The notes under the pieces: model-generated | What the model saw: the letters and a program-made list of their open reading frames with translations, nothing else | Database searches by the model: none | What the model was told of the DNA's origin: nothing | Part shown: positions 1,629 to 29,077 of the stretch, in pieces | Numbering within the stretch: the first letter of the stretch is position 1 | Layout: every line of letters begins with the position of its first letter | Position numbers and translations under genes: made by a program | Assembly: GCA_015501605.1 (NCBI GenBank) | Contig: JADNRZ010000003.1 | Location: forward strand, 806,001-870,000 | Reading direction: 5' to 3' | From: Panaeolus papilionaceus | Taxonomy: Eukaryota > Basidiomycota > Agaricomycetes > Agaricales | Length of the DNA stretch: 64,000 bases

Positions 1629-5947
<4,319 letters not shown>

Positions 5948-6818
5948 TGGAGATATTCAAGCCTATACACGTATTCAATTCGAATGATATCCAAGCCTAT
6001 ATATATTAAAGGCCCTATGAGCAGCAGTTGTATGTCATGAAGAAAGGCGCCTAAGAGATGAAGGAAAGTGGTAAAAGATATGAATTGACATTACAACTTT
6101 ATCGCCAATAAAGGCCAAGTCAGAAATTTGGGTTGACACGTGGCACGTGATGTATCATAGAGCATCACGTGTATTAGACGCGCTAATTAAAGCACCAGAT
6201 TGACGGAGCATCTGCCACTTAGAAGAGAATATGTAGCATAGACCAACCATGGAATGAGATAATTATGAAATGTAAAGATGGATTATGGTATACATACCAA
6301 TCATCCCCTGAATTGCCGAACATAATGACAAATTATAAGGCCTTTCGCTCAAGAATTATTGTGTCAAGATACTGGGTGAGCGGCTAGCCACGAATGAAGG
6401 AACAGCGCAGTGCCACTGGGCGTCTAAGTCTTTGTCTACGCTTCCATCGGCGTTAAGATGCTCTTATCGCTAACGACAAAACTTGTCCCATGATGCTTGA
6501 GAATGACTCGTTTGTTCCGGAGTCCTGGGGACCCATCTAAAGACTTAACTTTCCCATGGAACACATAACTTAGGTTTAATTTTCCTGAAATGTGGATTAA
6601 TATTTCCTCTTATTACTACCAATGACAAGCTGGAAGTCATTTCCCATTCTCTCGCAGAACAACAGGCTGAGGCACCCGATCAGTACCAGTCACGTGGGTA
6701 AAGGAGATACATATAAGGGCTCCGGGGGAGACAGAGTTCAAGTTACAGCCGCTTCACCTTTAACCATCGCCACTAACATCTCCGTTTTATATTCTTCTAC
6801 AAATACTACATCGTCTAC
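5948..6818. promoter_or_regulatory. Shared divergent promoter region, RPC2 / E2
   Basis: An 871-base non-coding interval between two head-to-head start codons (RPC2 minus at 5947, E2 plus at 6819). It must hold both promoters. A pyrimidine-rich stretch precedes the E2 start. No specific factor site can be assigned with confidence. Confidence 0.5.
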
Positions 6819-7714
6819 ATGTCAAAGACTGCCCCGAACGCCTCAAACACCCTGCTTCTCAGAAGGCAGTTGGCAGAACTTACCAAACATCCAGTCGAAG
6901 GTTTCTCTGCGGGTAAGTATCGATCTCGACTTTGATCTGGCTTCTCTGACATGAGATAGGCCTCGTCGATGATGACAACTTTTATGAGTGGGAGATCATG
7001 ATTATCGGGTCAGTTTTCATCTTGTTCGAGCTGACCATAAGACTGAAAACTAGTGACCTTCAGACCACAAGATACCCTATAGTACGTTCTGGTTTTTCAA
7101 TTAGAATTACTCGTTTTAATCCATCAATTGGCTTTAGTGAAGGAGGCTTTTTCAAAGCACGTCTATCGTTCCCTCCCGAGTTCCCCCTGCTACCACCCAA
7201 GATGCGTTTCATCACACCCATGTGGCACCCAAACAGTAAGTCGTCAGCGGCTCCCCATTCCAGTGGTTAACCGAAAACCTACTGCAGTTTATCCTGATGG
7301 TACCGTCTGTGTCTCTATTCTGGTATGTTTTGTTGGTGGCTGTTAGCTGGTTTTATTACTTATCCTTAATCAGCACGCCCCCGGAGACGATCAGTACGGA
7401 TACGAAGATGCTGGGGAGAGGTGGATGCCCGTTCACACTGTCGAATCTATTGTAAGCATTTCCTTCTACAGTCTATATTTCACATATTAAATATCGTTTA
7501 GCTTGTCAGCGTGATATCATTGCTCTCATCCGACACACCCAACCTCGACAGTCCTGCCAATGTCGATGCTGCTAAGGAAGTCAGAACGGACCTAGCAGGT
7601 CAGTTTCATTCGATCGATATATCCATTTAAATCGGGGTTTCTAAATGTGCTATAGGTTACAAGAAGAAGGTTCGACGACTTGTAAGGAGGAGTGCAGAGG
7701 AAGCTTTCGATTAA
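6819..7714 (+). CDS. Ubiquitin-conjugating enzyme E2, UBE2G1 / S. pombe ubc15 type
   Basis: E2 enzyme, 175 aa from eight exons: 6819-6912, 6960-7008, 7064-7081 (18 nt), 7138-7235, 7288-7322, 7374-7451, 7502-7598, 7656-7714. The sequence starts MSKTAPNASNTLLLRRQLAE. The active-site block YPDGTVCVSILHAPGEDQYG contains the catalytic Cys, followed by the acidic insertion and ERWMPVHTVESI. The tail DSPANVDAAKEVRTD...VRRSAEEAFD is closer to UBE2G1 than to UBE2G2, so the two G-class E2s of this window are different orthologues. Role by family: ubiquitin transfer, often Lys48 chains, in quality control; the substrate is unknown. It faces RPC2 across a shared upstream region. Confidence 0.93.
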
Positions 7715-8525: not shown

Positions 8526-11500
8526 ATGGACACGATATCTCGTCTAAGGGAACTTTTATTCCGTGCTCTATCATCACCAGAACCACAGCATGAAGAACAA
8601 GAACTTTTCGATCAGCTCATGCTTCAAAAGCCCCGGTTGCTGCAGTTATTCGACGTAGGACCTCAGAGTCAGCAGGAACAAAAGGAGATTGAATCAGGTA
8701 TACCATCTAAATCTTTTTAGAATTTCTTGGAATTGTTTATGTCTTGAATGTTTGTTTCACCAGGCAAACCAACGATCAATGGCAAGCCAACAGCTGTGAA
8801 CGCAGACTTCGCTCGTCAAGCCGTGTTTCTGGCTCAACAACTAGGTTGTTCTGAAAAATACGTCGCTGGCGTACTACACCATGTGACATCCCAGAATCCA
8901 AACATCGAGGCCATTCCATGTATGGAACTTGCGGTTTCAACCTTCCACCAGCGTCGGCGGCACCTTGTTGAATCTTTGAGGTTCCTCATGGAGGTTACAG
9001 AGGCAGCAGAACTCCCCGACGCGCCGTCAACGTATAAAAGCCTTGCTCGATTTGTTATATCTGAATTGCTTCCTGGAACTAGAACTATGGCGGGACAAAT
9101 GTCACTAGCACACAAAATCTTGAGGGAGATCGAGCAGTTGGATGCTGTCATCGGAAGAGGGGACAACGCAAGGAAGAATGCTGGAAGTAACACTGTTCCA
9201 CCTACGGGGCAAGGTACGCTGTTGTTTGTTTCCGTCCTTATCTTTGTGTGTTGAGCAATGTGCAGGTACACCATCCCTTGGGTTTGATACACTCAATGCT
9301 CGCTATGACTCGCTGAAATATGAGAGGCGATACCTTGCGATTGTCCTCTGTTTTATATCCAGGCTGGGATACTTCTCCGCTGCTGAAGTTAAGCTTGTTA
9401 TGGAATGGCTTTCAACGAACCAGAACAACCCCATCACCTACTACATGTTGACATCTGCCCTTCTTTCTTTCGACCCCATTGATCCCTCAAATCATCTCTC
9501 AACAAGACGTGCATCAATAGCGACTGATCAGTCTCTCATGACATTTATGATCAAGAAGTTTGAGCCGTCTGCACAGTGGAAGGAGCCAGGGTTAAAGGCC
9601 GCAGTGTTGCTGAAGTGGACGATGTTTTTGACGGAGGCACGCCACAACGATTCAACGTTAGAACACCGCGGAGGTTTTAAGAACGAAGAACTGGAGACGC
9701 AAGTGTGGAACGCGGTCCAAGGAGATGCGTTCCTATACCTTGCCCGTGTTGTGTTGCACATCAGAGGCACAGAGAGCGACGGACCTGCCGGTGCCATCTT
9801 GGACGATTCGCCTATCGATCAACTTGACCAACGCGAAGTTCCATCTGCCGACTTCAAACCCATCATTCTCTCTACCTTCGAGACCCTTGTTCGTTCGCTC
9901 ATCACCCATGCTTCCTCGGAACTGCGTAAAATCAAACAAAGACAAGAAGATCTCGTTCTTGCTACTGCCAGGACGGATAGGCGTAATGTGTCTCGCTTCT
10001 CAACAAACATCCCCGTCGAGCCTGAAAAGAAGCCCGGTACCGCGCCAAGGCATGACATTGCAATCCTCTACACGTTCATTGGCATCCTTTTCTCAGCCCT
10101 TCCCGAGGAACGTGCCCTCCAGTTCTGGGGATCTTCACCCGGTCAGTCCTACCGGACCACCTACCAAGAAGCTGTCGAGTCAACTTCGGGGCGGCTGCCT
10201 CTCTTTGTTCAGTGGGCTGTCTGGTCGACCTCAACACAGGACACCACCATGTTATCGTCGCTTTACGATATGCTCTGCGGTCTCGCACATGGCCAGCAGT
10301 GCAGCGAGCTCGCTTACAACTTCCTCGCGAGAGGCGGGGTTGAGATTGTTCCAGGTAGCACCGCTTCTGTTTCGTCGAATAGTCCACCGACACTGTCATG
10401 GACTGTCATCTTCGGGACTTTGGAGTCCTGGGCAACACATGCCGCCAATCCCCGGAGCCAGCCTCAATCTCAGCCTCTCGGGATGAGCACATCGTTCACT
10501 GGTTCTATTCAGAACCTTGCATCACAACAGCTAGCATCGTCTCCATCCCAGCAGCAGTTTATGATTGGGCCAAAAGATGTCATTCTTGCCCGCTCGTTCC
10601 TTCGCATTTTAGCAACTGTCGTCAGCCATTCAGTTGCAGTCAGGACCACCATTGCCGGTCATGGTCAATTCAGGGCGATCCCCGTTCTGCTATCACTCAT
10701 TCCACTAGGAATTCCTCTGGAGCTGAAGGGCGCGCTTTTCGAAACGCTCTCTGCATTCTGCGAACCTGGCGCAGGAGCAGCAGGCATTGAAATATGCAAA
10801 TCAGTATGGACAATGATGGAGCGTTTGGAAGTTATCAATGTTCGTCTAGGGCCCAGCGCCGGGATGAGCGTTTCACTGGCGACTGGAAAAGGTGTGGAAG
10901 TCGAGCTGGAGCAGGTTGAAGCTGCACACCGTGTATATCCGGCCACTATCGCGTTCCTCAAGCTTCTTACAACGCTGATTCACACTCCCAAACAAATCTC
11001 GTTACAAGACAGAGCAACAGGAGCTGAACCTCTCAACACCATTCCTGACAACCTTGGTCAGCCTTACCGTATGGTTGGAATTGCACCCTTCACATCGTTT
11101 GTCATCGACAATGTGTTCAATAACATCCCCAACCGCGAGTACTCGCAACCTTCCGATCGGTGGAAGATCAATGATTTGTGCTTGAACTTCATCGAGCGAA
11201 GTTTGGCGAGCTTTAACCTCGAGTCGCTTGTCGCTGGTCTGGATGATGGCCCACTTAAGATGGAGACCGTGACGCCTCTGCTCATTCACCCCGGGTTTGA
11301 CGTTATGAAGAGGCTCCTGACTACCACAGCGCTCCAGACGACTATTTTGTCGTATATCGTCGAAGGCCTGGCTGGCTTTGAAAAGGGTCTGGCTGATGAA
11401 GACGTCTTCTTCCGCAACACTATTGTTCGTGTCCTGCGAATCGTATATCGAGTGCTGGAGATACAGGATATTTTCCTAGATGTCTTTGTTCCTCTGCTTC

Positions 11501-14500
11501 AGGAACTCAATGGATCGGTGCTGGTGGGACAAGCACCGTCACGCTCATCCTTCACTCGATTCGATCAGGCTTTGACATTTGCTCCTCGATTCATTCCTGC
11601 TATCGCTGCTTACGTGTCATACCCTTCGCACCCAGAGCTTGTGTATCTTTCTGTCCGCATCATGTCCCGACTCTCCACTTCCACTTCACCCGCATCCCTT
11701 GTCCCTCTTATTGAGCGCAGCACCAACTCCGATCGCATTTTGAGCGGTTTCATGCAAATTATGACGTCGGATTCGACAGAGGACGCCGCACAAGCAGAAG
11801 AGTATGCTGAACAGACCACAGGTGCTGGTGCTCCAACAATGGATATCCCCACGGAGTCGTTAGAACAAGCAACACGACTTGCAGCACTGAACCTTATTAT
11901 TCAGGACACCGAATCTAGCCGACCTTACCCCAACCTCGCCCATTTCCTTCTGTTTGGCTCAAGGCAAGGGGAATATACGATTCAGGATCCTCATGCTTTG
12001 GGAGCACAGCAAACCAGCATTCATGTTCTTTTGGAGCTCATCAATGCAGGTGTACCCCGGGTCAAGGGAAAGAGGAAGGAGAAGACACCAACTGATAGTA
12101 CCGAGCCGCTTTTCCTTACCCTTCCTGATATTGCTGAGCGGATGTATCGAGTGGTATACCAGCTCTGCATTCACCCCAGGACCTCTGAATTTACTGCTAG
12201 GTATCTTCGTACTCGCGAGGACTTCTTTGCACGACAGATCGCCCGCATTCCCCTTGCTGCACCAGAATCGATCAGACAACCCCTCATCCAAGTTCTCTAT
12301 GCAGATGGGGCGCGCATAACCACCAACGTTTCTGCGCTTAGCTCCTTCCTAGCCCTCCGCTCCTACATCTTCGACCTCGTTGCTCTCGAGCTACATGTCC
12401 TCACCAACCGAGGACACTTCAAAGGTGTCACTGAGCTTCTAGAAATCCTCTTTGGTGCCGACTTTGATTGTAATGATGAAGATCAAGTATTCCCCACGTT
12501 CCACGAGCTTGGCCAATCTCCCATGCGCATCGTGGACTTTTTACAGTCCCTGATGTTCGACTGGGCGGACAGTCTTTCTGTCGAGCAAGTCGATTTGAAG
12601 TACCTTGGCCAATTCAACCCTCAGCCGTGCATGCGCAAAGACAAATCCGGATGCGAGGTGGTTGATCGAACGGCTGTTCTCTACCTCCTAGCTAGCGCGC
12701 GACGGACATTGCATTCCAACGGCACAATTGCGACGCAATCCCAGAATGAGCAGCTCAACAAGGAGTTTAATTACATTTTGGAGAGTTGCGCTGTCGAGAA
12801 TCATCGCAGAAAAGTTTCCTACGCTCGGGCGTGTGGGTTTGATGCATGGAGGAGACTCCTTGATTTGGCGCTAATGAAGTGCTTCGACCGACTCCCCCAT
12901 AACCGTCGGGAAAACATGCTTTTTGACCTCCTGCACGTTCTCCCTGCCGCAATTCGCTCCCCCAATATCGAAGAGCCAACAGCAATTCTCCTTTCTGAGA
13001 CAGTCCTTTCCTCCGTGACCAAGCTCCGTGAAGATCGCCACCAGCAACTGATCCTCCAATCTGTCGATGAAGAATCAGAGTCAGGGTCTCTTCCCGCCGA
13101 GAGATTATTCAATATCCTTCGGCACATCTTAGAGGGAATTATGGAGAGCAATCATGTCGAGCTCGTTCGTGGAAATCTCTATGCATCGCTAATCAACTTC
13201 TTCCACCTCATCCGTTCATCTTCGCCCAATCAAATCACTTTCGAGTCTGAGTCAAACCCCTTTGCTGCCTCCCTCTCTATGTCCATGATGCGAGATGTTT
13301 TCAGCTCGTCTCGCAGTCGCTCAGTCACGCCATCTCATTCATCGACCGAGAAGAGTTCTGGTACTCCCCTGGAAGTGGGCAGCCTCGGCTTGCTCAAACC
13401 ACACATGGAGAAGCTTGTAAGCGTGATCTCGCGCGATGCTGTCGATGGCACAGAGGTCTGGAAGACGGTCGCGTTTATGCTTCTTGACGCGACTGTGCAA
13501 CTGTCGAGCTTGGAAAAGCCGCATGTTGCGTTGAGTGCCTTGAGCAGGCATGGAATGTTGGCAAACTTTGTAAGGAGCTTGAAGGATTCTGATGGCAGGT
13601 TGCAGGCGGTTCTCAAACCTGATCCTGGTACGCTGATTGCCGTGTCTTGGTTTCTGATCTAGTATTGACGATGCTTTTATAGAGGAGTTGAATGCATTGT
13701 ATGTGTATGAAGCGAAAATGTCGCTTTTCATCCGAATGTCACAAACAAGAATTGGTGCTGAGAGGCTACTCGACGCTCACCTTCTACCTGTTCTTGCCGC
13801 GTGTGATTATCTGGATGCTCGACCAGAAGCCGACCAGGCATTCATTGGTAAGGCCTTTTTAAAATAAAAATAATTGCCGTCAGTAACACCCACCGAACAA
13901 TTCAGACTACGACTCTTTCCTTCCGTCCGCCATTCAGAGGTATCATCAACTCTTCCTACCTGCACTACAAGTCGTAGATGGGGTATTGGCTACTTTAGGA
14001 AGCAGGCATTCGACTGCTACACATCAGGTACATATGTCCCACACTTGGTCATTTACTTTCTAACAATCTGGTCAGGCACTCGACTTCCTCTCCAACCACT
14101 CAGCGACAATTGCTATCTTACTCAAAAACGAATCAGAATACGTCAGCTTGGCAACATTAGAGGAAATCCACCTCATCATTGCACTGTGCACGAGTGTTCT
14201 ACCTTCAGTTCCCAAGGCGGATCTTGTACGTCTCTACCCAATTTAGTCATCATAGCAACAACTAAGTTGCGTCCTTTTAGCTCTCTGCTAACACTGGCTT
14301 TGGAGCTATTCATCTGGCTATTCTCGGACTGTCAACACGGTGCCTCGGTAGGGGTCGACCATTCCCTCATGTTGTCCCACAAAGTGATGAGGACGTGCAG
14401 CTGAGTGGCGCTCATGCATTCGGTACGTGTTTGTTCCGGTTTAAATATCAAATCCTCATTCCGGTGGTAGGTTACGGATCTATGAGTAAATTTGACTTGA

Positions 14501-15915: not shown

Positions 15916-18235
15916 TTAAAATACGATCAGAAATACAGGTCGAATAGCGTCGTCTGAATAGACAATAGTCTCATTCAAGGTACCGTTATTTCGGTCAAAT
16001 ACAACCTGATAATTTGCAAAGGACTCCTAAGAATAAAAGCCATAGGAGAAGGGGAGATCCACTTACCGAATTGAACCCGGCTGGACATGACATGACTTCG
16101 TTCCATCCAGTGACCATTCGGGGTTTTCCAAGGATAACCTTGGTCAGAAGAACGGCACCACTCCCTCCCCCAGTGTAACTGTATGACCTAGGCAAAAAAA
16201 AAGAGTTTAGGATGTGCTTGATAAACTCAAGATTGGCGTTGCATGTACTTATTAGATGCCGACGACGTGTATATACCTGGTCCAAATCTGAAAAATGAAA
16301 ACAAGCGCATTGTTCCGTCAGGAATCCAAGAATGGTAAAAGTAGAAAAATAGCTCACGCTCCAGAGGGATTTGCAAGACTGGTTTTGAAGGATGTTTTGA
16401 GAATGTTGCACAACGGACAATTACTAGCGTTGCAAAGTTGGGCGTTGTTCCCTGTACCGAGTGTGCACTTCCTTGAGGTACCGTGGTATCGGAAAACTTC
16501 ATTTCCGTGATTTTTCCTTGGGTGTCGTCAGCCTTTGCTGTAGAACGAAAATGTGAGTCTCTCTCACTTGTATCGATCATATGGTTGAAGGAACGCCTTG
16601 TTCTCTATGATCTTGAATATCTTCTTAATGGGTGGACAAGGGGGGCTGGTTACTTTCCATGCATCTTTGAACTTTTTCTCGACTGAGTAGGATAAAATTC
16701 GCAATCGCTCAATGACTGGCAAAACCAGAGTCAATGCTAAAAGTGCTCACCCAGCTCGTATGTCGCGTGTCCATGGGGTGCTTCGAGAATCAGTGGTGTT
16801 GATTTGATGGCAATTTGCTTGCACGACTTCCCGCAAAGGTGGTATCGCCCAAACTTGGGTCTGCTCTTGCACAGCAAGCAAGCAATTTTAGCGCTATCGC
16901 GACAGCTTTTGCCGCACTGGTTATGACCCGTTTGTCTTGGTCGACGATGGCAATACTATTGGAGCAAGTGAGTAATTCGGCTTGGCAGAGGCGCTTCTTG
17001 GTATGGCTTACGTCGCACATACTGGGATCACTGCTCCCTGTTTTGCACAACCTTTCTGCACACGTTAGACCGCAAGTCACGTATCTACTGTCGCGACATG
17101 GTTTGACGCGACACACCTGAAATAAATAAATAAATCAGACCCGTATAAAACACGTAGTTCCTGGTATACCTACCACACAAGCGACCGATGGATGTGGTGG
17201 GCCTGCAGGCTGTGGGGGAGGAGGTTGAGATCGGAAAGGAGGGAATGTCCCTGGCGGGCCTGGGTGGTTGTTGTGATAATTTGGGGGTCTTCCTCTTCGG
17301 CCGCCTCCACCACTATGGTTATGGTCACGCCTGTTATAGCCATGACTTCTCCCAGAGGACGACGCTTGTGACGGTGGTGGTCCAACCCAGAAAGGTTGAG
17401 TGTATAATCCTCCGTACTGCATGTCATCAGCATCGTCATCTTGCTGCTGTTGTGTGCGTCGACGGAATGATTGAGGAAGAGGCTGTTGATGCTCCTGGCG
17501 CTGAAATTGCGGTTGGGTATGGGCTGGTCGAGGATTTGGCCGACGTCGTTGGGTTTGAGGCTCTGTCCCTGGAATGGCCTCGGCTGGTAACTCGGTGTGC
17601 ACCTCAACCACAGGTGTTTGTGCTTGATTTCTCTGGGACTTGTATCCGCCGAGATGCTGGGTGAGCAGGTGAATATTTGGATCGACATATGTCGTCGATG
17701 CTTGCTGAGTATGTGAGCCATTCGGGTGGTTGTGCCCTCGCTGTGCCTGGGTCCCACGGTCGGTCCCCGCTGATACCCATCCTTTCTAACATGATGTTGG
17801 TGATTATTGTCAGTCGTAGATTCGTTTGGATCGGTCGAGCTGATCGCGTTTTGTAATTTACCAGCGCATGTCATACCGCAAGTTGGAAAGGACCTTCCTC
17901 CACTCGAATAGGCTGGTTTCCTTCGACAGATCTACGAGGACGGTAGAAGTTGGTCACCAGGCTTCCTATGTAACCTACACGACACTCACAATGCAGAGAG
18001 GCGGTGGAGGTCCAGGTGCGAACTGGGCGCGGGGACTTTCCGTGACTGGCATGTTATACTCGGCACTGTCGTCGTCATCATCGAAGTCACCAAGAGAATG
18101 GTCATCGTCGTCGAAATTGTCGTCGAAGTCATCATTACTGTCGAGGTCGAGGTCGTTGTGGCCATCCTCGTTTACATGAGGCAAACGTTGGGATACTGGG
18201 GTATATGTCCCAACGCCTTGGGTCTGAAAAGACAT
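15916..18235 (-). CDS. Zinc-knuckle repeat protein with PARP-like ADP-ribosyltransferase domain (triad intact)
   Basis: Spliced from ten exons: 17990-18235, 17862-17931, 17174-17769, 17012-17116, 16751-16955, 16568-16682, 16358-16516, 16249-16287, 16067-16187, 15916-16005; 1746 nt, 581 aa. Order: an acidic Asp-rich N-terminus; a Cys4 knuckle (LCIICRRKPAY..TCGMTC) near residue 80; a long Gln/Pro/His/Arg-rich linker; three more knuckles from about residue 302 (ACVVC..TCGLTC, MCDYC..QCGKSC, ACLLC..LCGKSC); then a catalytic domain. GNEVFRYHGTS (His457), FGPGIYTSSASNKS (Tyr505) and LNETIVYSDDAIRP (Glu564) match the His-Tyr-Glu signature of PARP-type transferases, which move ADP-ribose from NAD+ to a target. 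A Cys-rich insert (CTLG...LCNASNCPLC) lies between the first two motifs. Seen: motifs and frame. Inferred: activity. Target and polymer- versus mono-transfer are unknown. It is a paralogue of the gene at 18774. Confidence 0.85.
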
Positions 18236-18773
18236 TGTATTGCTCTAACGAAGAAGGAAAGGAAGAGAGGGTGAAGACACCTCTCGATGTTGGGTATCGA
18301 TAAGAGAAAGGCTGTGAATTGTCGGCGACGTGGAGAGACAGTACGATATAAGGGGTCTATAGCTAAGCAGTTAGATGTATATAAGAAGGGAATTGTATTA
18401 TAAGTTGGAGTTACAGACGGCATTATTCCCAGGTTTAATTACATGAGGGGACGAGATCGTTCCCGATAGGAAATATATGGCAAGGGGGTCGAACAAGATA
18501 AAGAAAGGAACGACCAAGCGAAGGGTAGGAACAATGAGGCTATGACATTTAACGGCGAACCGGAAGGGTTGGGCGCTAAATTCGGAGGTCAGGTCACAGG
18601 TACAAGTGACCCCCTTTCGATCTTTCGGAATTCGAATCAAATTTGGACCCAGATATCACAGCCATGCCGCAGAGACTCCGGTAGCTTATTGTACCTTCCC
18701 ACTGTCTTTCATTACTTATCTGCCCATCACCAAGGCCTGTCTTCATATACTCTACATTACTACCCCTCTAAAC
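18236..18773. promoter_or_regulatory. Divergent promoter shared by the two ADP-ribosyltransferase-like paralogues
   Basis: 538 non-coding bases between two head-to-head start codons. Both promoters must lie here, so the two genes may be co-regulated. There is an in-frame ATG at 18606 upstream of the chosen plus-strand start, so part of this interval could be coding or 5' UTR. Confidence 0.5.
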
Positions 18774-20916
18774 ATGCAGGACAAGTCGATGAACATGTCT
18801 GCATCACCTTCTATTCCACCGGGAGCATCAGCTCCCCAAATTTCGGCTCTCAGATATGACCTTGCAACAAGCTTGACTCCAGAAGAAGAGGAACAGATGT
18901 TTATAGATATGGACAGCAGCAGCATGGACCACGCATCCTTGGACTCGGACGATGATTTCCCTAGCGACATAGAGTCAACCGATGTGCATGACATGACGAA
19001 GCAGTTTGACGAATCACCACCGGACTACGATCCCTTTCAAGATGAAAATGGCGAAGGTGGGACCAGTGGAGGGTTTGAAATATCAAACACTCCAAGCCAC
19101 GAATCGCTAGATTGGGAGAGTGCTCAGCCTGTAAAGACGGATGGTCCGTTGATACAGAAAACACCAGCCTTGTCTCCTGCTAATCCTACCTCGGAGAACT
19201 TCCGACCCACAAGTCCATCGCAGAACCCCCGTGCATCGGGCTCAGGGTCGTCCGCGTCAATGGCTGCAATGGTCAGGTCCGGTCCTCTGTGTGTGGTAAG
19301 CAATATCTGTGCTGTTGTCCATGTACCGCCATGACGATGGACGGTCTCCTTTTAGATTTGTGGAAAGAGACCCGCGTACAACGATGGCAGACGTTCTTTC
19401 AATACCTGTAGCAAGACATGCGGGACGCAATTGAAAATACTACAGGGGCTTCCAGATCAGAGTGGGAGTAGTAGACCGGTGGGTCCAGGATATGATACGA
19501 GAGGTGGTTCAAGGTCAATGTGGGATAACTATCAGACAAATAGCATGGTGAATCTGCACCATAGGGCGACTCCGACCACAGTCAGAATGTGTGTTGTAAG
19601 TGTAGCTATCAAATGATCAATCTTTCAGGAGACTTAGCCCGCTATCGTCTACAGGTCTGTCATACAAGGCGACAGTGTGTTAGGGGAGGGGTCGTTTATC
19701 CAACGTGTGGACTGACGTGTGCTTCGAAACTGGCTGGGTCTCAAGGAATAGAGATGTGCACGGTATGTGGTTGTAATGTCAAGTTATTCGTTTTCTTGGT
19801 TGAAAAATGTGTTTCGTAGTTCTGCCACCAACGACCAAAAGCCATTCGGAACGGCAAAACGTATCCACAATGTGGAAAGACGTGTCGAGATAAAGCGCAA
19901 GCAGCTGGTATGGTGTTGAATACTTTGTTCTATTTACCATTCTGACATATCTTTGTATCGAAGTCACTAATGTCGCTGCCTGTGCGACGTGTGTTCTATG
20001 CTGGAAGAAATTTAAATTTGGAAATAGTGACTTCTGCACTGTGGAATGTGTAGAAAATGCAGAACGAAGGTCGCCAGTCCTCCTTGAAATCCCGAAGGGA
20101 CACGTCTCCTTTAAGAAAGGTCAGATATTTACTCGCTTTGTTGTATCAATATTGCTAAAGCATCGTTCATGCGGCAGTGGCCGACTGCTTTTCTCGAGCT
20201 TGGAAAGATACACGTAGGCCCTCTCCGACCGTGAAGAGAATTTACATGGTATCAATAAAGAAGTCTGCGAAAAACAATTATGAGCTGTATCGGTTCGTCT
20301 CTTCCTCACCCATTCTGGAAGTGACATTCAAACCCCTTTTGTTTGGCAGTAACAAGGTCGGTCAGCATGGGTCATTCCAAAAGAAAGGCAACGAATTGCT
20401 TTCATGGCTTGGAATCCCGCGTGATTGCGGCTTTGGTGACCCAGGCAAGATGGAGCCTTGTGCAAGCTCAAAGTGCTTGATGTGCTGTATCGTCAGATCA
20501 AACGTAACAAGAATAGAGTACCCCGATGGGATTATGTCTACCCCTCTGCCTAGGTCCGTCCTTTAGTTCCACCTCTCCAAGTTTTCTGCCTGGATGGGTG
20601 CTGAGCTTTTTGTTTGTGCAGAGCCGTTGAGATGGTGGGTACACCAGCGCGTCGGTCTTCGAAGGTTGTGCTGTTGGCCAATATCCTGATGGGGAGACAA
20701 GTTGAAATGGATTCGAGGCATGTAGCTGAATACACACCACCCCCAGGTATCGACTCAGTAAGTGGGATAACCGTTCCTCAGCTCGATGTCCTGGTTGACA
20801 TCTTTGTACAGATACGTTTGGTCAGTATCACCCATCTTCGCAAGATCGAGTATGGTGAAGTTGTCGTCTATCATGGTGACGCTGTAAAGCCCCTTTACAT
20901 GATCGCGTACGAGTGA
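18774..20916 (+). CDS. Zinc-knuckle repeat protein with degenerate PARP-like domain (catalytic His and Tyr lost)
   Basis: Paralogue of the gene at 15916-18235, nine exons: 18774-19295, 19356-19595, 19655-19762, 19820-19907, 19964-20119, 20178-20292, 20350-20553, 20622-20757, 20812-20916; 1674 nt, 557 aa, frame intact throughout. The N-terminus is acidic and Ser/Asp-rich. Four knuckles: LCVICGKRPAY..TCSKTC, MCVVCHTRRQC..TCGLTC, MCTFCHQRPKA..QCGKTC, CVLCWKKF..FCTVEC. The catalytic-like domain follows: where the partner has RYHGTS this has SWLGIP (His to Leu430), where the partner has GIY this has GIM472, and the Glu element survives as YGEVVVY (Glu539). The intact frame and conserved intron sites argue against a dead gene; it looks like a pseudoenzyme. 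Start: ATG at 18774; an in-frame ATG at 18606 would add 56 residues. The exon 7/8 region is the least certain part of the model. Confidence 0.8.
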
Positions 20917-22046
20917 TGTCCCCCTTTTCTTCCTGGTTAGAGTAGCTTTGGACATTGTCACTCGTTCTGTGCTTTTTTGCGCGGCACTCAATGAACTGTG
21001 TAATTGGATCAACAGAAAGACTATTTAAAGCTGGTGATCAGTAACTCAGGTTACGGTGAATAGTGAATATACTGTTACAACGGCTCCCTCGGAAGACGGC
21101 GTCCACATTCTGACCGCTTTCCGCCCGTCTTCCGAAGAGCCATGAGGTATATTCGACGTGAATAGCAAGTGCCTTGATACATATATTGAGTGCCTGAGGT
21201 TACTCAACCATTTTGAGGGGTGTCTTTAGAATAGATTCGCACCTAACTGCTCCTGGAACAAAGCATTAATAATTGATTTCGCTGATGATTCTGATAGGAA
21301 CACGTTCGATGGTGTCATGTGCGATGTCGCCCCATGGCGTGCGGAAGAATGGCATCGCATTGTTACACAAAGTGCCCTGGATTTTTAATAAATATGTAGT
21401 GGGAACAGAAGATTCGTGGTCGACCTTGCAAGGTGTTAGTTTTCCAATTGTGTTCCAGCCCGGCCGGCAGATTTGAGGCGGGATTGGATTTGGGGATGAT
21501 AACGACTTGAACACTCGTTATGAACACGCGTGCGATTGTCATATCACGTCGGGGAGGACGGCGATCTCGCTTCGAGGAGGGTGTTGACTTCGAACTTCGA
21601 AGGAGAAGAATCCATGGACACAGATGACCAATAGACGCTGAACATCAGAAACCCCGTCAGCTGGTGCTTCTGGCGAGCTGGCAGGGATGCATCGCCTCGC
21701 CGGAGGGACCCTGTTGATTGGAGAATGGATGGCCTGCGGAGGGGGGGTTCGAACGAAATAAACAGTCAGAATGATATCCGTCTATGATAAGTGCAGTATT
21801 ATTTGACGGCAGGCACGTTGCCAAGCATTGGGTATGTGCACAGCCGTGCCACTGCACTGAATGCCAGAAGTAGGTATAGTGTGGGAGAGCTGGCAAGTCC
21901 TTGCTGTGCCCATCTACACTGTGAACAATCCTCTCACTTGTTGTTACTTGTCCTGACCCTAACACACAATCACTGTTCACGTTTCATCCTTGATTACTTG
22001 CCAAAAGGTTAGGAAATTCTGCGAATAACCACGAATTCATCGGCTT
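20917..22046. other. Intergenic between pseudo-transferase and PARG
   Basis: About 1.1 kb without a convincing gene. It contains an imperfect inverted repeat (21065-21154, listed separately) and should hold the PARG promoter. Small open frames here have no motif. Confidence 0.5.
21065..21154. repeat. Imperfect inverted repeat (hairpin-forming)
   Basis: The left arm (21065-21099) and right arm (21125-21154) are complementary in three ordered blocks: GAATATAC (8 bp), GGCTC (5 bp) and TCGGAAGACGG (11 bp), around a 25-nt loop. Two arms sharing three blocks in the same order are unlikely by chance. It may be a small MITE relic, a structured RNA or a palindromic regulatory site; the sequence does not decide. 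Confidence 0.6.
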
Positions 22047-23570
22047 ATGGTTGCTACATCGAACATGATTAGACATCAACCCAGAACACTTGTGTCTACA
22101 AGCGCACCAACTCCACATATTCTTTACAGGCAAATAACAGACAAAACGTCTCCCGTCCAAGATTACGCGTGTTGCTCTGGAGAAGGAAGCCCGAGGGGAA
22201 TGATCCATGCATTCGTACCGCTAGGAACTGCTGTCGTCGCATGTGGCGCACTGGCCGTAGCGGGACATATGGAAAATTCACAATCTTCCTCCAGGTCTCT
22301 TTCACCAAACCCATCATCACCAAACCGCAATCGTAACCAGAATCGCAATCCCCGTCGGTCTCAAACAGCAGATTTCGGCCCAGCCCATATCCATTCAGAA
22401 CCCCATTCACATCGTCACTCATCACCGTCGGTATCAGGCGCATCAATGTCCATGACCCCAGCTGCCTCCAACAGTACACGTTTTGATGAAAGTCGAAGGG
22501 CAGAGCTGAAGAGACAGGCCGAGGAGACACTCACCATTCTCAGGGAAGAAATGTTTACCATGAGAGGAGTGGATTACGAGCTAGCAGCAAAGATCAAGGA
22601 AACAAGGAAATCTACCAAGTATTACTCACCGACATCCAACATCAGTCGTTGGGCCTCAACGAAACCACGCTCGTCACGCAACTCGTCTGCCGCAACGGGT
22701 GTGAGCAATACTCATATCGCGATTCTGCAAATATCGACATTGGACGCCGCGAGGTTACTGCAACAAATGTATAAGAACAACCCAGAGGAGCATCCAGCGA
22801 CTGGTATATTGAACTTTGCGAGTGCGACTAAACCAGGAGGAGGATTCAAGAATGGGGCTGAAGCACAAGAAGAGTCGATTGCGAGGTCTTCAACCCTTTA
22901 TCTGGCATTGAGAACGGAAGAGGCACAGCAGTTTTATGCTCTTCATGAGAGGGAGAGTGGATGGAATTTGGCAGGATATTATTCGCATGCGATGATATAC
23001 TCGCCCAAGGTGATGGTGTTTCGAGACGATGATGGGAGGTTGACGTACCCTTTTGAAGTGGATGTGCTGACATGTGCTGCGGTGAACGCTGGTGATGTTA
23101 GAAAATCAGCTCCAGGAGTTGTATCTGGGGTCGAAGTGGGGATTGAGAAGGAGATGACGGAACGGATGGGTAGAATCCTTTACCTGTTCGAACAACAAGG
23201 AATGAAGAACATTGTGCTCGGCACTTTCGGGACAGGCGTCTTTAGGAATCAGGTTGCGACGGTTGCTCGAATTTGGGCACACTTACTTTTGGTCCCTGAT
23301 GCTAGATTCCGGGATTCGTTTGATAGGATTATATTCGCGATTACTGGGGAGGAGACGTATGTCGAGTTTCAGAGCACATTTAGCGCCTGGGGTCAACAAC
23401 GAGCGCCTGGACTTGGGCAAGGACAACCTGGACCATCAAGACCACAGTCCGGTACACAATCTCAGCAACATAGTAATCACCATTCTCAACATCATCATCA
23501 TTCGAATCGCCTTTCGAAATCCGACGGTCGAGCAACTCACAGTGACAACAGTTTTATGTACCTCGCGTAA
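22047..23570 (+). CDS. Microbial-type poly(ADP-ribose) glycohydrolase (PARG; TIGR02452/DUF2263 family)
   Basis: Predicted to hydrolyse ADP-ribose polymers or remove ADP-ribose. One exon, 507 aa from the first ATG; ATG codons at 22068, 22200 and 22269 are also in frame, and the last would give 433 aa starting MENSQSSSRS, so the true start is unsure. The catalytic signature GGG-x6-QEE is present as GGGFKNGAEAQEE (residues 264-276), with two adjacent Glu. Before it, LNFASATKPGGGF forms the usual PARG loop, and later VLGTFGTGVFRNQVATVARI is the conserved C-terminal block. A Ser/Pro/Asn-rich N-terminal region and a His/Gln-rich tail flank the domain. It lies 1.1 kb downstream of two PARP-like genes, which suggests a linked write-and-erase role. 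Seen: motif. Known: family chemistry. Inferred: functional link. Confidence 0.88.
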   Translation: MVATSNMIRHQPRTLVSTSAPTPHILYRQITDKTSPVQDYACCSGEGSPRGMIHAFVPLGTAVVACGALAVAGHMENSQSSSRSLSPNPSSPNRNRNQNRNPRRSQTADFGPAHIHSEPHSHRHSSPSVSGASMSMTPAASNSTRFDESRRAELKRQAEETLTILREEMFTMRGVDYELAAKIKETRKSTKYYSPTSNISRWASTKPRSSRNSSAATGVSNTHIAILQISTLDAARLLQQMYKNNPEEHPATGILNFASATKPGGGFKNGAEAQEESIARSSTLYLALRTEEAQQFYALHERESGWNLAGYYSHAMIYSPKVMVFRDDDGRLTYPFEVDVLTCAAVNAGDVRKSAPGVVSGVEVGIEKEMTERMGRILYLFEQQGMKNIVLGTFGTGVFRNQVATVARIWAHLLLVPDARFRDSFDRIIFAITGEETYVEFQSTFSAWGQQRAPGLGQGQPGPSRPQSGTQSQQHSNHHSQHHHHSNRLSKSDGRATHSDNSFMYLA

Positions 23571-23695
23571 TTTAGATAAGATGAATAAGGATACACGTGA
23601 CTAAATATGTATTTGTTAAAGACAAACAAAAAACGGTATTTATAGATGGAAATCTTTTTTTTCAGAGATTTGGCTAACCAGCCCACCTCACCGTC

Positions 23696-25605
23696 ATGTC
23701 TGCTCAGTATCTCAACATCAAGGATGCCATCGAACATCTCAAGACTTATGAGCATGCAGACGGCCTTTCTGTTCGCCATCTCATGAACTCTCATGTCCAT
23801 GGTGGACTCACCTACAATGACTTCCTCATGCTGCCAGGAAAAATCGACTTTCCTGCTTCAGATGTCGTTGCAGAGAGTCGTATCACTCGTAATGTAGTCC
23901 TCAAGACTCCCTTTATGAGTAGCCCTATGGATACTGTGACAGAAAGCGAGATGGCCATCGCAATGGCGGTAAGCATTCATGGTTATGTCATTTATAATCG
24001 TATATTTATTCAGATTTTATTCTTTAGCTCTTGGGAGGTATTGGTGTTATCCATCATAATCAATCTCCTGAACGCCAGGCATCTATGGTCCGTGCCGTCA
24101 AGCGTCATGAGAACGGTTTTATCTCCGACCCTGTTGTCTTATCTCCCACTCACCTCGTGGAGGATGTCCTTGACATCAAGGCCAGGCTCGGTTTCTGCGG
24201 TATTCCTATCACTGGTGAGCCCATCTATCTATTTCTGTTTTCCTTCGTGATGAGTTTCAAATATCAACCTTCGTTCTACCGAACTAACGCGTGTATACGT
24301 GTGATTTGAGGAGAACCTTTCGTATATTGGCTTTTCTGACATCCTCACCTCGTGTTGTGCTTTTACGTCTTTCGATCAAGTCGTCTGACCAGTTCTTTCT
24401 ATAGATACTGGTGTCGTTGGTGGAAAACTCATCGGAATCGTCACAGCACGCGACGTCCAATTCCGTGATCCTTCCACTCCTTTGTCAGAGGTCATGACCA
24501 CGGATCTTGTGACTGCCCAGCAAGGCATTACCCTTATGGAGGCCAACGCCATTCTTCGTGATTCGAAGAAGGGAAAGCTTCCTATTGTCAACTCCGAGGG
24601 TCAACTTATCTCCCTCCTTGCTCGTTCGGATCTTCTCAAAAATCAGTCTTATCCTCTCGCTTCCAAAAATCCCAAGACCAAGCAGCTCTACGCCGCCGCC
24701 GCCATTGGCACCCGCCCTTCCGATCGCGATCGTCTTTCCCTCCTTGTCGATGCTGGTCTTGACATTGTTATCCTCGATTCTTCGCAGGGAAACTCTATCT
24801 TCCAGATTGAGATGGTCCAATGGATCAAAGAGACTTACCCTCACCTCGAAGTCATCGCAGGAAACGTCGTCACCAGAGAGCAAGCTGCGTCTCTCATTGC
24901 TGCTGGTGCAGATGGCCTTCGCGTTGGAATGGGCTCCGGCTCTATCTGCATCACTCAGGAAGTTATGGCCGTTGGTCGTCCTCAGGCTACTGCTGTCTAC
25001 AACGTTGCCGAATTTGCACGCAAGTTTGGTGTTCCCGTTGTTGCTGATGGTGGTATCGGCAATGTCGGCCACATCGTCAAGGCCCTTGCACTCGGTGCAG
25101 GTGCTGTCATGATGGGTGGTCTGCTTGCTGGTACCGAGGAGGCACCTGGGGAGTACTTCTACCACGATGGTAAGCGTGTCAAGGCTTACCGTGGTATGGG
25201 TAGTTTGGAGGCGATGGAACAGGGCCAGGCTGCGAAAACACCAGGCAAAGCCGTCAGGTCTACCACCGTCGAGAACGCCGCCACTTCCCGTTACTTCTCT
25301 GAGAGCAGCGCTGTCAAGGTTGCCCAAGGTGTTTCCGGGGATGTCCAAGACAAGGGTAGTGTCAAGGCTTTCTTACCATACCTCTATACTGGTGTCCAGC
25401 ACTCGCTCCAGGACATCGGTGTCAAGAGCATTTCTGCTCTCCAGACCGGAGTCACTGAAGGAAGGGTCCGTTTCGAGCTTAGGACTGCCAGTGCTCAGGT
25501 TGAGGGTGGCGTTCATGGCCTTAATTCGTACGTTGATCTCACGTTCCTTGCACGTTCCTTTGCTGATAACTTTGCTATAGCTATACTAAGAGACTCTTCG
25601 CATAG
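23696..25605 (+). CDS. IMPDH: Inosine-5'-monophosphate dehydrogenase
   Basis: Oxidises IMP to XMP with NAD+, the committed step to guanine nucleotides. Four exons: 23696-23968, 24028-24214, 24405-25527, 25581-25605; 1608 nt, 535 aa, the usual size. Landmarks: [13 protein letters not shown] at the N-terminus, [14 protein letters not shown], a CBS pair (residues about 120-240: [28 protein letters not shown]), [16 protein letters not shown], the catalytic loop [13 protein letters not shown] with its Cys, [30 protein letters not shown] on the flap and a short end NSYTKRLFA. The last exon holds 25 nt. Its upstream neighbour, PARG, is 125 bp away on the same strand. Confidence 0.97.
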
Positions 25606-26049: not shown

Positions 26050-29000
26050 ATGGGTGTCACTGGCTTGTGGAAGGTAAGTAATCTCCATTATTGACAAGAG
26101 CTTTGGTTAATCTTAAACACAGATACTTCAACCGGCAGGGGAAGTAAGGTCTCTAACTGACCTAGCAGTCAGAGATGGGTTTCTGGCAAATCCAGATAAA
26201 AAACGAGGCTTCAGACTAGGCATTGATGCTAGTATCTGGTTTTTTCACGCAGAATACGGAAAAGAAGGAGAGAATCCAGTTCTACGCACACTCTTCTTCA
26301 GATGCGCAAGGTTAACCCAGACGACCTTTCTGCCGCTTTTTGTTTTTGACGGTCCAAAGCGTCCTGATTTCAAGAGGGGGAAGAAAGTCAGCAAAGTGGC
26401 AAACAAGCTCATTCCTGGCATGAAGAGAATAGTCGAAGCGTTTGGGTTTGAGTGCAGAACGGTGCGTTTACCTGCTTTTCGTTGCCTATTCCAGTGCTTA
26501 TTGTATTCCCTTTGTGTGTCTTCAGGCTCCTGGTGAGGCCGAAGCAGAGCTAGCCTACCTGAATAACATTGGGGTGATTGATGGGGTTATGTCTGACGAC
26601 GTCGATAACTTTTTATTTGGTGCTACCACTGTGATACGAAAGTATGTACTTGACAAAGGTTAAACGTATTCAGTATCCTAACAGTAACCCACAGTATCAG
26701 CAATAATTTATCTGGCAACAAATCTAACCCAATCCTCAACAGTGATGGCAAGGACGACAAGAATCACACCCGTGTCTACACTGCACATAACATTATGACT
26801 CACCCCGACATACAACTTACCAGGGGTGGCTCGATTCTCATCGGTTTGATGTCAGGTGGAGATTATAACACAGCAGGAGTTCCTGCTTGCGGTATTCAGA
26901 CAGCGCATGCCCTGGCTCGATGTGGCTTTGGTGACTCCCTCTTCAAAGCCGCGCAAACGCTCTCTCGTGAAGCGTTGGATGATTACATCGTGTCTTGGCG
27001 CGAGGAGCTTATTCAAGAGCTGAATACCAACTCAAGAGGGATTATCGGGAGGAAGCTCAAAGCGATAGCTAGCAAGGTTCCGCACGATTTCCCAGATGTT
27101 GAAATCTTGCTTTCTTACGTGCGGCCTGTAACATCGCAAAGCATGGGGAGGGAGAGCAATAACTTGTTGCTGACTTGGGGCAAGGAGCCTGATTTGGCCA
27201 AACTAGCAGGAGCTTGCGAGTTATTTTTTGAGTGGGGATACAAGGAGGCGATTCTTAAACGGTTTAGGACGGTGGTGTGGCCTGGTATTGTGTTGAGGAT
27301 ACTGAGGAGAGCGGTCTTGGATCAGGAGGAGCGGGAGAGGCGAGCGGTTCTTATGCCCGGCACGCCCAGCAGGAAAGGGAGGAAGGAGAATGTGTCTGGG
27401 ACGCCATCTAAAATGATTGCCCAAAGATTTTCGTCAATGACCGTCACGTCACCTGTCAAAAAGAGCTACCTATCAGATTCGGAGGATGACGAAGAAGAGG
27501 AAGAGAACAAGTTGATTGTGGCAATCCATTCGAAGCGGGAGAATCCATACACAGACCACACGCTGGAGTATAGGCTTGAGATTGCGCCGAAGCAGCTTGT
27601 TGAGTTGGCGGAGTCAGGTATTCAGGGTGTGCGATCGCCTGAAGGGCCTGATGAGTGGGACGACGACGAGGCAGGACTTGGGGATGGGGAAGGTGGTAGT
27701 AAGAAGAAGAATATGGAACCCGTCGACCCGGTGACCCACTTCAGAGTGTGGATGCCTGCGTGCATGGTCGAGTTGGTAGAACCAAAGCTCGCTAGGGACT
27801 TTGTTCAGCGAGAGGAAGAGAAGGAGGCAAAGAAGATCAAGGCGGCAGAAAGAAAAGCTGCCAGGGAGGCCGGTATCACACTCCCACCTGTCCCTAGAAA
27901 ACCTAAAGCCAAGGCGCAACCTACTGGTAAAGCCAAAGGCAAGAAAGGCGTTCCTGAGGATAAGACGCTGGATATCTTCTATCAACCTCCTCCCTCCCCA
28001 GTTAAGAAGGCCAAAACCACGAAGGAGTCTATTCTTGCGCTTTTCGACGATGTCTACCAGAATTCCGCCCAGGAAGAAGAGGAGGAGTCGGATGACGATG
28101 ATGTGCTTCCCTCTTTAGCGACGCTTGCAGCCAAGCCCAAATCAGCAGCTCCAAAACCACCCTCCAGAAAGACGACGTCTGCAACTTCACCTCCTGCCGG
28201 TATCAGGGACCTCACGAAAAAGAAGGCTACCGATACGTCTGCAGACCTCCTCGCCTTCTTTGCTTCCACTAAAGCAACCACCTCCAGATCCACTTCTCAA
28301 GGCCATCAGTCGACTGAAAGCACCTCCTTGTTTACTTCAACATATGTGCACGCAACTTCATCTACTTCTTCTTCCCGACCGCCGGCTGCGTCATCGTCGT
28401 CGCACAAAGATGGCCTTTTTTCTATATCTCGACCTACACAACAACTTTCATCCTCGACTCGGGACCTTGACGACGGGACTTGGGAAGAGTACGATCCGCA
28501 ACTGTGGAGCAAAACGACAGTCTCTGCTGGTTCCTTCTCTTATCAAGCATCTTCAACTATAACCCGGCCAGTCTCTCCTGTGGAGAATGCTATTTTGAAG
28601 TCACCCTCAAAGCGCAGCGCCCGCAATTCGAGTCCTGGGTGGTCTTCAGATGAGTCCCTCCGGACCAAATTCAGTAAATCACCTCGGAAGAGTTTGCAGC
28701 AGTCATCTCCGAGGCCTGCAAAGAGGAATGAAGTCAGAGATGTATCGCCTTCACCGATGCGTCGGGCACCATATAAGGCAGCGTCTTTGGGGTCGGCACC
28801 GTCATCAGTGGCATCAAGAGCAGGAAGCGCGGGTAGGAAAGCGGCTACGACGGTGGAGCCTAGGTTGGCGAAGCGGATAGAGGATGTCATTGAACTCACT
28901 GATTCAGATGACGAGTTCCCGAAGAGGGTGATGCCGTCGAAGGATGTTCCTCCTCTGTTAGCCGCCCGGGCAATGAGAAATATTGCCAGTAAGGCGAATG

Positions 29001-29077
29001 CGACGACTGCATTCAAGGTCACAAAGCCAAAAAAGGCGCCGATTGTGTGTAAAGATGTTATAGAGCTGAGCGATTGA
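26050..29077 (+). CDS. GEN1: GEN1/Yen1-type Holliday-junction resolvase (XPG/RAD2 nuclease)
   Basis: Structure-specific endonuclease that cuts Holliday junctions in recombination. Exons 26050-26073, 26123-26461, 26526-26641, 26695-29077; 2862 nt, 953 aa. N-domain: MGVTGLWKILQPAG then LGIDASIWFFHAEYG (metal Asp) and FVFDGPKRPDFKRG. I-domain: APGEAEAELAYLNN and GVMSDDVDNFLFGA, which carry the acidic metal ligands. LTRGGSILIGLMSGGDYN is the helix-hairpin-helix entry, with ACGIQTAHALARCG. The order and spacing, with MGVTGLWK at the start, fit GEN1/Yen1 and not FEN1 (no PIP box at the end) or RAD2 (no long spacer). The C-terminal half is disordered, rich in Ser/Lys/Pro with acidic runs and SP/TP sites, typical of cell-cycle-phosphorylated Yen1. 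The first exon codes for eight residues. Confidence 0.9.

Follow-up and report, generated by a model that had tools for sequence, protein, structure and literature searches.

Analysis of a 64,000-nucleotide stretch of the genome of Panaeolus papilionaceus (Basidiomycota, Agaricales; GenBank assembly GCA_015501605.1, contig JADNRZ010000003.1, positions 806,001 to 870,000 of the forward strand; hereafter, the window) points to a locus of three adjoining genes, at positions 15916..23570, that probably constitutes a mushroom module for reversible ADP-ribosylation, a reading that we hold with moderate confidence. The predicted components are a writer (gene A, a zinc-knuckle PARP, ending at 15916), a dead-writer scaffold (gene B, a zinc-knuckle pseudo-PARP) and a tethered eraser (a bacterial-type PARG, the open reading frame of which ends at 23570). 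An earlier note, made from the sequence of the window, had delimited the same locus and named the same two enzyme families, and both assignments hold: gene A scores 29.6 bits against the Pfam PARP profile PF00644 (curated cut-off, 26.7), and the PARG scores 134.3 bits against PF10021 (cut-off, 23.5; E 5.6e-39). The two PARP-like genes of the note are indeed paralogues, arranged head-to-head (BLASTP: 136 bits, E 2e-38, 29% identity over 313 amino acids), but the implied two writers are reduced to one, because gene B lacks the catalytic His and Tyr despite its PARP fold.

Gene A (15916..18235, minus strand; 10 exons, 594 amino acids) and gene B (18774..20916, plus strand; 9 exons, 557 amino acids) were spliced by hand, with intron positions chosen from GT..AG sites, from the frame and from how the two genes match each other; all 17 introns are of the GT..AG type and 51-70 bases long. 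The 538-base stretch between the two genes (18236..18773) might function as a shared promoter. The gene A protein contains four knuckles of the form Cx2C..Cx3C that are predicted to bind zinc (C81-C104, C316-C336, C351-C370 and C378-C397; 16821..17995, minus strand), with a long low-complexity linker setting apart knuckles 1 and 2, and a region that matches the PARP catalytic domain by profile (residues 418-567; 16000..16760, minus strand), the end of this domain being the C-terminus of the protein. The H-Y-E triad is complete, comprising His470 (16483..16485), Tyr518 (16269..16271) and Glu577 (15970..15972, all on the minus strand). In an alignment that contains 72 rows of the A family and 14 of B (two of the latter, gene B of the window and its database copy P0192, are one protein, so that there are 13 distinct B proteins), the His position is occupied by H in 70 A-family rows, with one Y and one gap; Tyr is invariant in all 72, and Glu is present in 69. 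The interval between His and Tyr includes a quartet of cysteines, a putative additional zinc site (16408..16467, minus strand), of which C476, C487 and C492 are each conserved in 70 of the 72 A rows, C495 in 71, and all four in 14/14 B rows.

The gene A protein has the characteristics of the ART/PARP fold. A structure model of the A family produced top matches to tankyrases, followed closely by PARP14, 15 and 10, and the list of similar folds also includes PARP3, PARP1 and the ZAP structures 4x52 and 2x5y; the top profile matches of gene A are PARP3 and PARP1. A profile scan extended to E 10 detected PF00644 alone in gene A, with no WGR, BRCT, PARP regulatory, WWE or UBCc domain. Given the intact triad, gene A is predicted to be an active writer catalyzing NAD+-dependent transfer of ADP-ribose.

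Gene B also encodes four knuckles (C173-C196, C253-C276, C289-C312 and C329-C348; 19290..20049), preceded by a PPDY sequence of the PPxY type (residues 82-85; 19017..19028); these and the following gene B coordinates are on the plus strand. No match to PF00644 was obtained for this protein up to E 10, in a search where the HMMER filters discard most weak matches; a model of P0192, which shows 100% identity with gene B across 273 columns, matches tankyrase 2 with E 2e-9, indicating a PARP-folded catalytic domain. The H-Y-E triad is lost in the entire family, the catalytic His and Tyr being present in 0/14 B rows: Leu430 takes the position of the His (20408..20410; L in 8 rows and I in 6), and Met472 lies at or near that of the Tyr (20534..20536; no Y in any of the rows, two of which have gaps). 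The position of the catalytic Glu is kept (Glu539, 20857..20859; E in 9 rows, D in 4 and A in one), and all 14 rows retain the cysteines in knuckles 2-4 as well as those in the PARP domain. In the phylogenetic tree, all B rows fall on one side of a branch with 100/100 support. The possibility that gene B is a pseudogene or a product of erroneous splicing is ruled out by the existence of P0192 and 12 other B proteins, their single fully supported clade and the conserved cysteines. The loss of His and Tyr is thus old and retained, so that the B domain looks catalytically dead, a conserved pseudo-enzyme instead of a broken gene.

Between species, B diverges more than A. The identities of A and B to the respective window proteins are 76 and 50% in Crassisporium, 77 and 44% in Galerina, 73 and 43% in Agrocybe chaxingu, 73 and 35% in Psilocybe cf. 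subviscida, 72 and 46% in Flammula, and 57 and 45% (a closer pair) in Hebeloma; across the species that have both, B ranges over 35-50%, and A lies mostly at 65-77%. Some 285 kb from gene B, on the same contig (L016, G000:C23:535000-542000, positions 3422-4447), there are knuckle exons that resemble those of gene B, with the best match at 78% over 27 amino acids and no PARP domain match at that site; this is perhaps a truncated B copy.

The PARG gene (22047..23570, plus strand) begins after a gap of 1130 bases downstream of gene B, is intronless and would encode 507 amino acids if translated from the first ATG; an alternative later start, Met52 at base 22200, suits several relatives. In addition to the PF10021 match that covers the catalytic domain (22518..23027, plus strand), the protein matches TIGR02452 (E 1.8e-56) and the solved structures of bacterial PARGs (E 1.4e-30). 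The signature at 22836..22874 (plus strand), previously read as GGG-x6-QEE, actually has a spacing of seven, and GGG-x7-QEE is invariant in 16/16 aligned PARGs, within the GGG-X6-8-QEE range of the family. From these features, the protein is expected to erase ADP-ribose. Ahead of the domain lies a hydrophobic segment of 19 amino acids (22209..22265, plus strand; mean Kyte-Doolittle value 1.95), a putative membrane anchor. The homologues listed for this protein are the best 120 of 1185 matches; among the nearest 60 rows, counting that of the window, 44 have 35 or more residues ahead of the domain, and 30 of these 44 contain a hydrophobic stretch, compared to 1.6 expected from shuffled sequences, whereas among the farther 61 rows of the matches listed, such a stretch is present in one of the 11 that can be assessed. 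In the set made up of the PARGs of 13 linked species (see below) and the window, five reach the anchor threshold (the window protein, P0077, P0098, P0124 and P0126). Basic residues following the hydrophobic stretch in some members suggest that the enzyme faces the cytosol.

Conservation of the locus was assessed by taking contigs of equal length as one and the same contig and by comparing locus tags, under the assumption that tag order reflects position; species without a listed PARG were left uncounted. The earlier note had made the proposed pathway depend on conserved synteny in close relatives, and linkage is indeed common: an A-like gene and a PARG are on one contig in 11 of the 12 named species that list both (Crepidotus is the exception), B and PARG in 7 of 8 species, A and B in 7 of 8 (Agrocybe chaxingu being the exception in both cases), and all three genes in 5 of 6. 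Some of the linked contigs are short, namely, those of Agrocybe chaxingu (13877 bases), Gymnopilus dilepis (16876) and Pholiota conissans (89554), and the tags are close in Psilocybe cf. subviscida (D9619_011841, 011840, 011837), P. cubensis (JR316_0010934, 0010933) and Agrocybe chaxingu (NLJ89_g7599, g7597). In Crassisporium and Pholiota conissans, several A copies share a contig with B and PARG. Because these species are related, the linkage reflects retention and not repeated origin. It suggests a control system undescribed by fungal biologists; within the open-licence PMC text, we found no description of this cluster and no study of ADP-ribosylation in Agaricales.

The three families also have in common an enrichment of PPxY, a motif bound by WW domains. 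Ahead of the domains, PPxY occurs in 20 of 70 A rows and 9 of 12 B rows (1.5 and 0.6 in shuffled sequences), and ahead of the PARG domain in 27 of the 45 near and 7 of the 23 far PARGs that are of sufficient length (1.1 and 0.3 in shuffles); PPx words are followed by Y in 25 of 88 cases in A and 12 of 41 in B (3.3 and 0.8 expected from the Y content), and in 27 of 95 cases in near PARGs and 7 of 32 in far PARGs (2.5 and 0.6 expected), all these counts coming from rows that are related by descent and hence not independent. In the window, an N-terminal PPxY is found in gene B only. In the genome, WW domains form no fewer than three tight arrays (contigs C71, C15 and C56). Our guess is that the WW partner is a ubiquitin ligase of the NEDD4/Rsp5 type.

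Under the favored reading, the knuckles of gene A would dock the writer on a target or on nucleic acid, and ADP-ribose would be attached from NAD+ by the PARP domain with its H-Y-E triad. Gene B, which combines knuckles with a PARP scaffold devoid of the His and Tyr on which normal use of NAD+ depends, would most likely serve as a scaffold, decoy or regulator, either sharing the targets of A or pairing with A. The PARG would take off what A attaches, held by its anchor-like N-terminal segment on the cytosolic face of a membrane, and a single WW-domain partner, most likely the NEDD4/Rsp5-type ligase, would assemble the parts through PPxY. As for the process under control, stress or defence is a guess.

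By analogy with known systems, our best reading is that the module resembles PARP12/ZAP with an added eraser more than the nuclear PARP1. In mammals, the zinc-finger PARP known as ZAP (ZC3HAV1, PARP13) has a dead domain and is a paralogue of the active PARP12, the two genes being located about 900 kb apart (PMC8102003); like A and B, the human genes are linked zinc-finger PARP paralogues, one with an active and the other with a dead domain. The differences are that PARP12 and ZAP combine CCCH fingers with WWE, whereas A and B possess CCCC knuckles, show no WWE match and are separated by 538 bases, and that the available part of the same source reports no PARG gene paired with PARP12/ZAP, whereas one adjoins A and B. 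The window PARG shares its domain (PF10021, TIGR02452; structures 5zdb and 3sig) and GGG-x7-QEE with the bacterial-type PARGs, which are reported to occur in filamentous fungi, among them Basidiomycota (PMC4245714), but stands out in that many of its close relatives have a hydrophobic N-terminus and PPxY and in the linkage to PARP genes. Writers and erasers of ADP-ribosylation are also paired in the SirTM/zinc-macrodomain systems of bacterial and fungal pathogens, where they adjoin or are fused (PMC11490716), and in DarT1-NADAR, where they are encoded together, again adjoining or fused (PMC11543638); these pairs belong to other enzyme families, and no dead writer paralogue is reported in the available parts of the two papers. 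The PARP and PARG of Fusarium are the subject of PMC11569842.

Gene A shares the PARP catalytic domain with the fungal Clade 1 and Clade 6A PARPs (Citarelli 2010, Perina 2014) but has neither WGR, the mark of Clade 1, nor UBCc, the mark of Clade 6A. The CX2CX9-19CX4C pattern that precedes the PARP domain in Clade 6 (PARP6/8) proteins (PMC4245714) is near, not identical, to the Cx2C..Cx3C of gene A. Fungi are said to hold Clades 1 and 6 only, and Postia placenta to retain just a Clade 1 PARP (Citarelli, PMC2964712); an A-like protein of Postia placenta, P0052, is among the homologues that we detected. The A-type PARP may have been overlooked in that survey or classed as Clade 1, and because Postia placenta is credited with a Clade 1 PARP, gene A itself may be a stripped-down member of that clade. 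For this reason, we assign a lower probability to a bolder reading, which we regard as doubtful: that Agaricales possess an undescribed PARP system, distinct from the WGR- and UBCc-bearing PARPs and working like PARP12/ZAP with an eraser of its own, in which the active A, the ancient dead paralogue, the membrane PARG and a WW ligase engaged through PPxY would form an ADP-ribose/ubiquitin switch at a membrane surface, possibly involved in antiviral or other defence.

Additional PARP-like genes are present in the genome on contigs C13 and C19, and additional PF10021 genes as a tandem pair on C56 and singly on C70. The C13 locus (L007, G000:C13:713000-722900) contains another group of zinc-knuckle PARP genes, with frames that include RRWHGT, LLFHGT and FGTGIYTTS. 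The matched PARP exons on C13 stop some 1.4 kb away from a NADAR gene (G000:C13:722218-722805), one of three NADAR loci, which exceeds the cut-off once neighbouring pieces are joined; NADAR enzymes, including eukaryotic ones, take ADP-ribose off guanine (PMC11543638). Thus, two of the three PARP neighbourhoods in the genome adjoin an ADP-ribose hydrolase, each of a different family, and none was found in the third. The tandem PARGs on C56 (L009, G000:C56:1448500-1458400) occupy positions 3790-4707 and 6066-7542, and the domain of the second is interrupted by a long charged insert. A frame at positions 3923-5359 of L015 (G000:C12:2870200-2880100) matches the canonical-type PARG profile PF05028 with 55.4 bits and has the variant signature GFGPACTQEE; representatives of Basidiomycota have been reported to lack the canonical type (Perina 2014, PMC4245714). 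The genome-wide profile search with PF00644 missed A and B because exons were scored separately, and both were recovered with single-protein queries. Exon-by-exon searches of the whole genome produced no match for WGR, for which the same search was positive in 2 of 14 control genomes, or for PARP_reg, which had no match in any control genome either; a classical nuclear PARP may be missing from the genome, although a search of this kind can overlook one. In viral contigs, no relative of the PARG or of the A family was found at the sensitivity used.

Around the three genes, the window encodes Nup192 (frame at 9124-13662), the GEN1 resolvase (frame at 26654-29077), IMPDH, the start codon of which follows the PARG stop after 125 bases on the same strand (23570-23696), as well as F-box, GH43 and Rap-GAP proteins; no RNA family reaches the gathering score in the window. 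Two GH43/CBM6 genes (44179-45348, minus strand, and 58086-59254, plus strand), about 13 kb apart, are near-identical by eye, and the latter is split across two overlapping frames.

Several observations weigh against an integrated module. Linkage was deduced from equal contig sizes and tags, not from the DNA of the relatives; several of the linked contigs exceed 1 Mb and so provide weak evidence, the tags in Psilocybe cyanescens are 26 apart (CVT25_013118, 013092), the A-like gene and PARG of Crepidotus are on separate contigs, the B gene of Agrocybe chaxingu is on another, short contig, and ordinary conservation of gene order may account for the linkage. No PARP was detected by tblastn within about 30 kb around the C56 and C70 PARGs (L009-L014), and no PARG in the 10 kb surrounding the C19 PARP (L008), which rules out the proposition that every PARP has an adjoining PARG. 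The putative anchor is below the threshold in two PARGs of the linked set, P0086 (1.54) and P0153, and the models of seven others begin at the catalytic domain, precluding an anchor call. With regard to the motif, the window PARG lacks PPxY, the sole PPxY of gene A (PPNY, residues 280-283) is in the linker, and PPxY is also found in PARGs outside the near set (7 of 23). Finally, four of the 72 aligned A-family rows depart from H-Y-E, and knuckle 1 of B is kept in 11-12 of the 14 rows, two of which do not cover it.

Some of these points would be expected if the genes were neighbours by inheritance alone, that is, if A and B stemmed from a duplication and the PARG adjoined them by chance in one group of Agaricales where gene order changes slowly, an explanation to which we give a modest chance. 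All 12 B rows with a species name come from what we take to be dark-spored Agaricales, and the housekeeping surroundings (IMPDH next to the PARG, Nup192 and GEN1) may be stable; this is countered by the close locus tags in several genera, the multiple A copies that accompany B and PARG in Crassisporium and Pholiota conissans, the matching biochemical roles, the PPxY enrichment in all three families, and the adjacency of the second PARP array to NADAR, a gene for another kind of ADP-ribose hydrolase. The same C13 array, the greater divergence of B and the precedent of ZAP as a dead-domain paralogue of the active PARP12 (PMC8102003) would fit a role in defence or non-self recognition, with A as a harmful effector, B as a sensor or restrainer and the PARG as an antidote, comparable to DarT1-NADAR and PARP12/ZAP; we deem this unlikely, and the housekeeping genes in the surroundings speak against it.

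Improbable in our assessment is a PARP1-like DNA-damage pathway in the nucleus, one of the roles entertained in the earlier note, with A as the polymerase and the PARG as the eraser of the polymer. Its attraction lies in the H-Y-E triad of A, in PARP3 and PARP1 as top profile matches that also appear in the fold list, in the nearby GEN1 gene, and in the failure to find WGR or a PARP regulatory domain elsewhere in the genome, such that A could have taken over; yet, with PARP_reg undetected even in the control genomes and both searches conducted exon by exon, a classical PARP may exist. This interpretation is further weakened, albeit still alive, by the absence of WGR, BRCT or regulatory domain matches in A and B, by the structural matches headed by tankyrases and then PARP14, 15 and 10, and by the hydrophobic N-terminus of many close PARG relatives.

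If the module of writer, dead writer and tethered eraser is real, an active zinc-finger PARP paired with a dead one, as in vertebrate PARP12 and ZAP, would have arisen separately in fungi, a bacterial-type PARG would have been recruited to the PARP pair and tethered to a membrane, and a short motif would connect ADP-ribose with ubiquitin. Mushroom ADP-ribosylation seems to have received little study, and in a transformable species the three adjoining genes offer a compact genetic target, removable singly or jointly.

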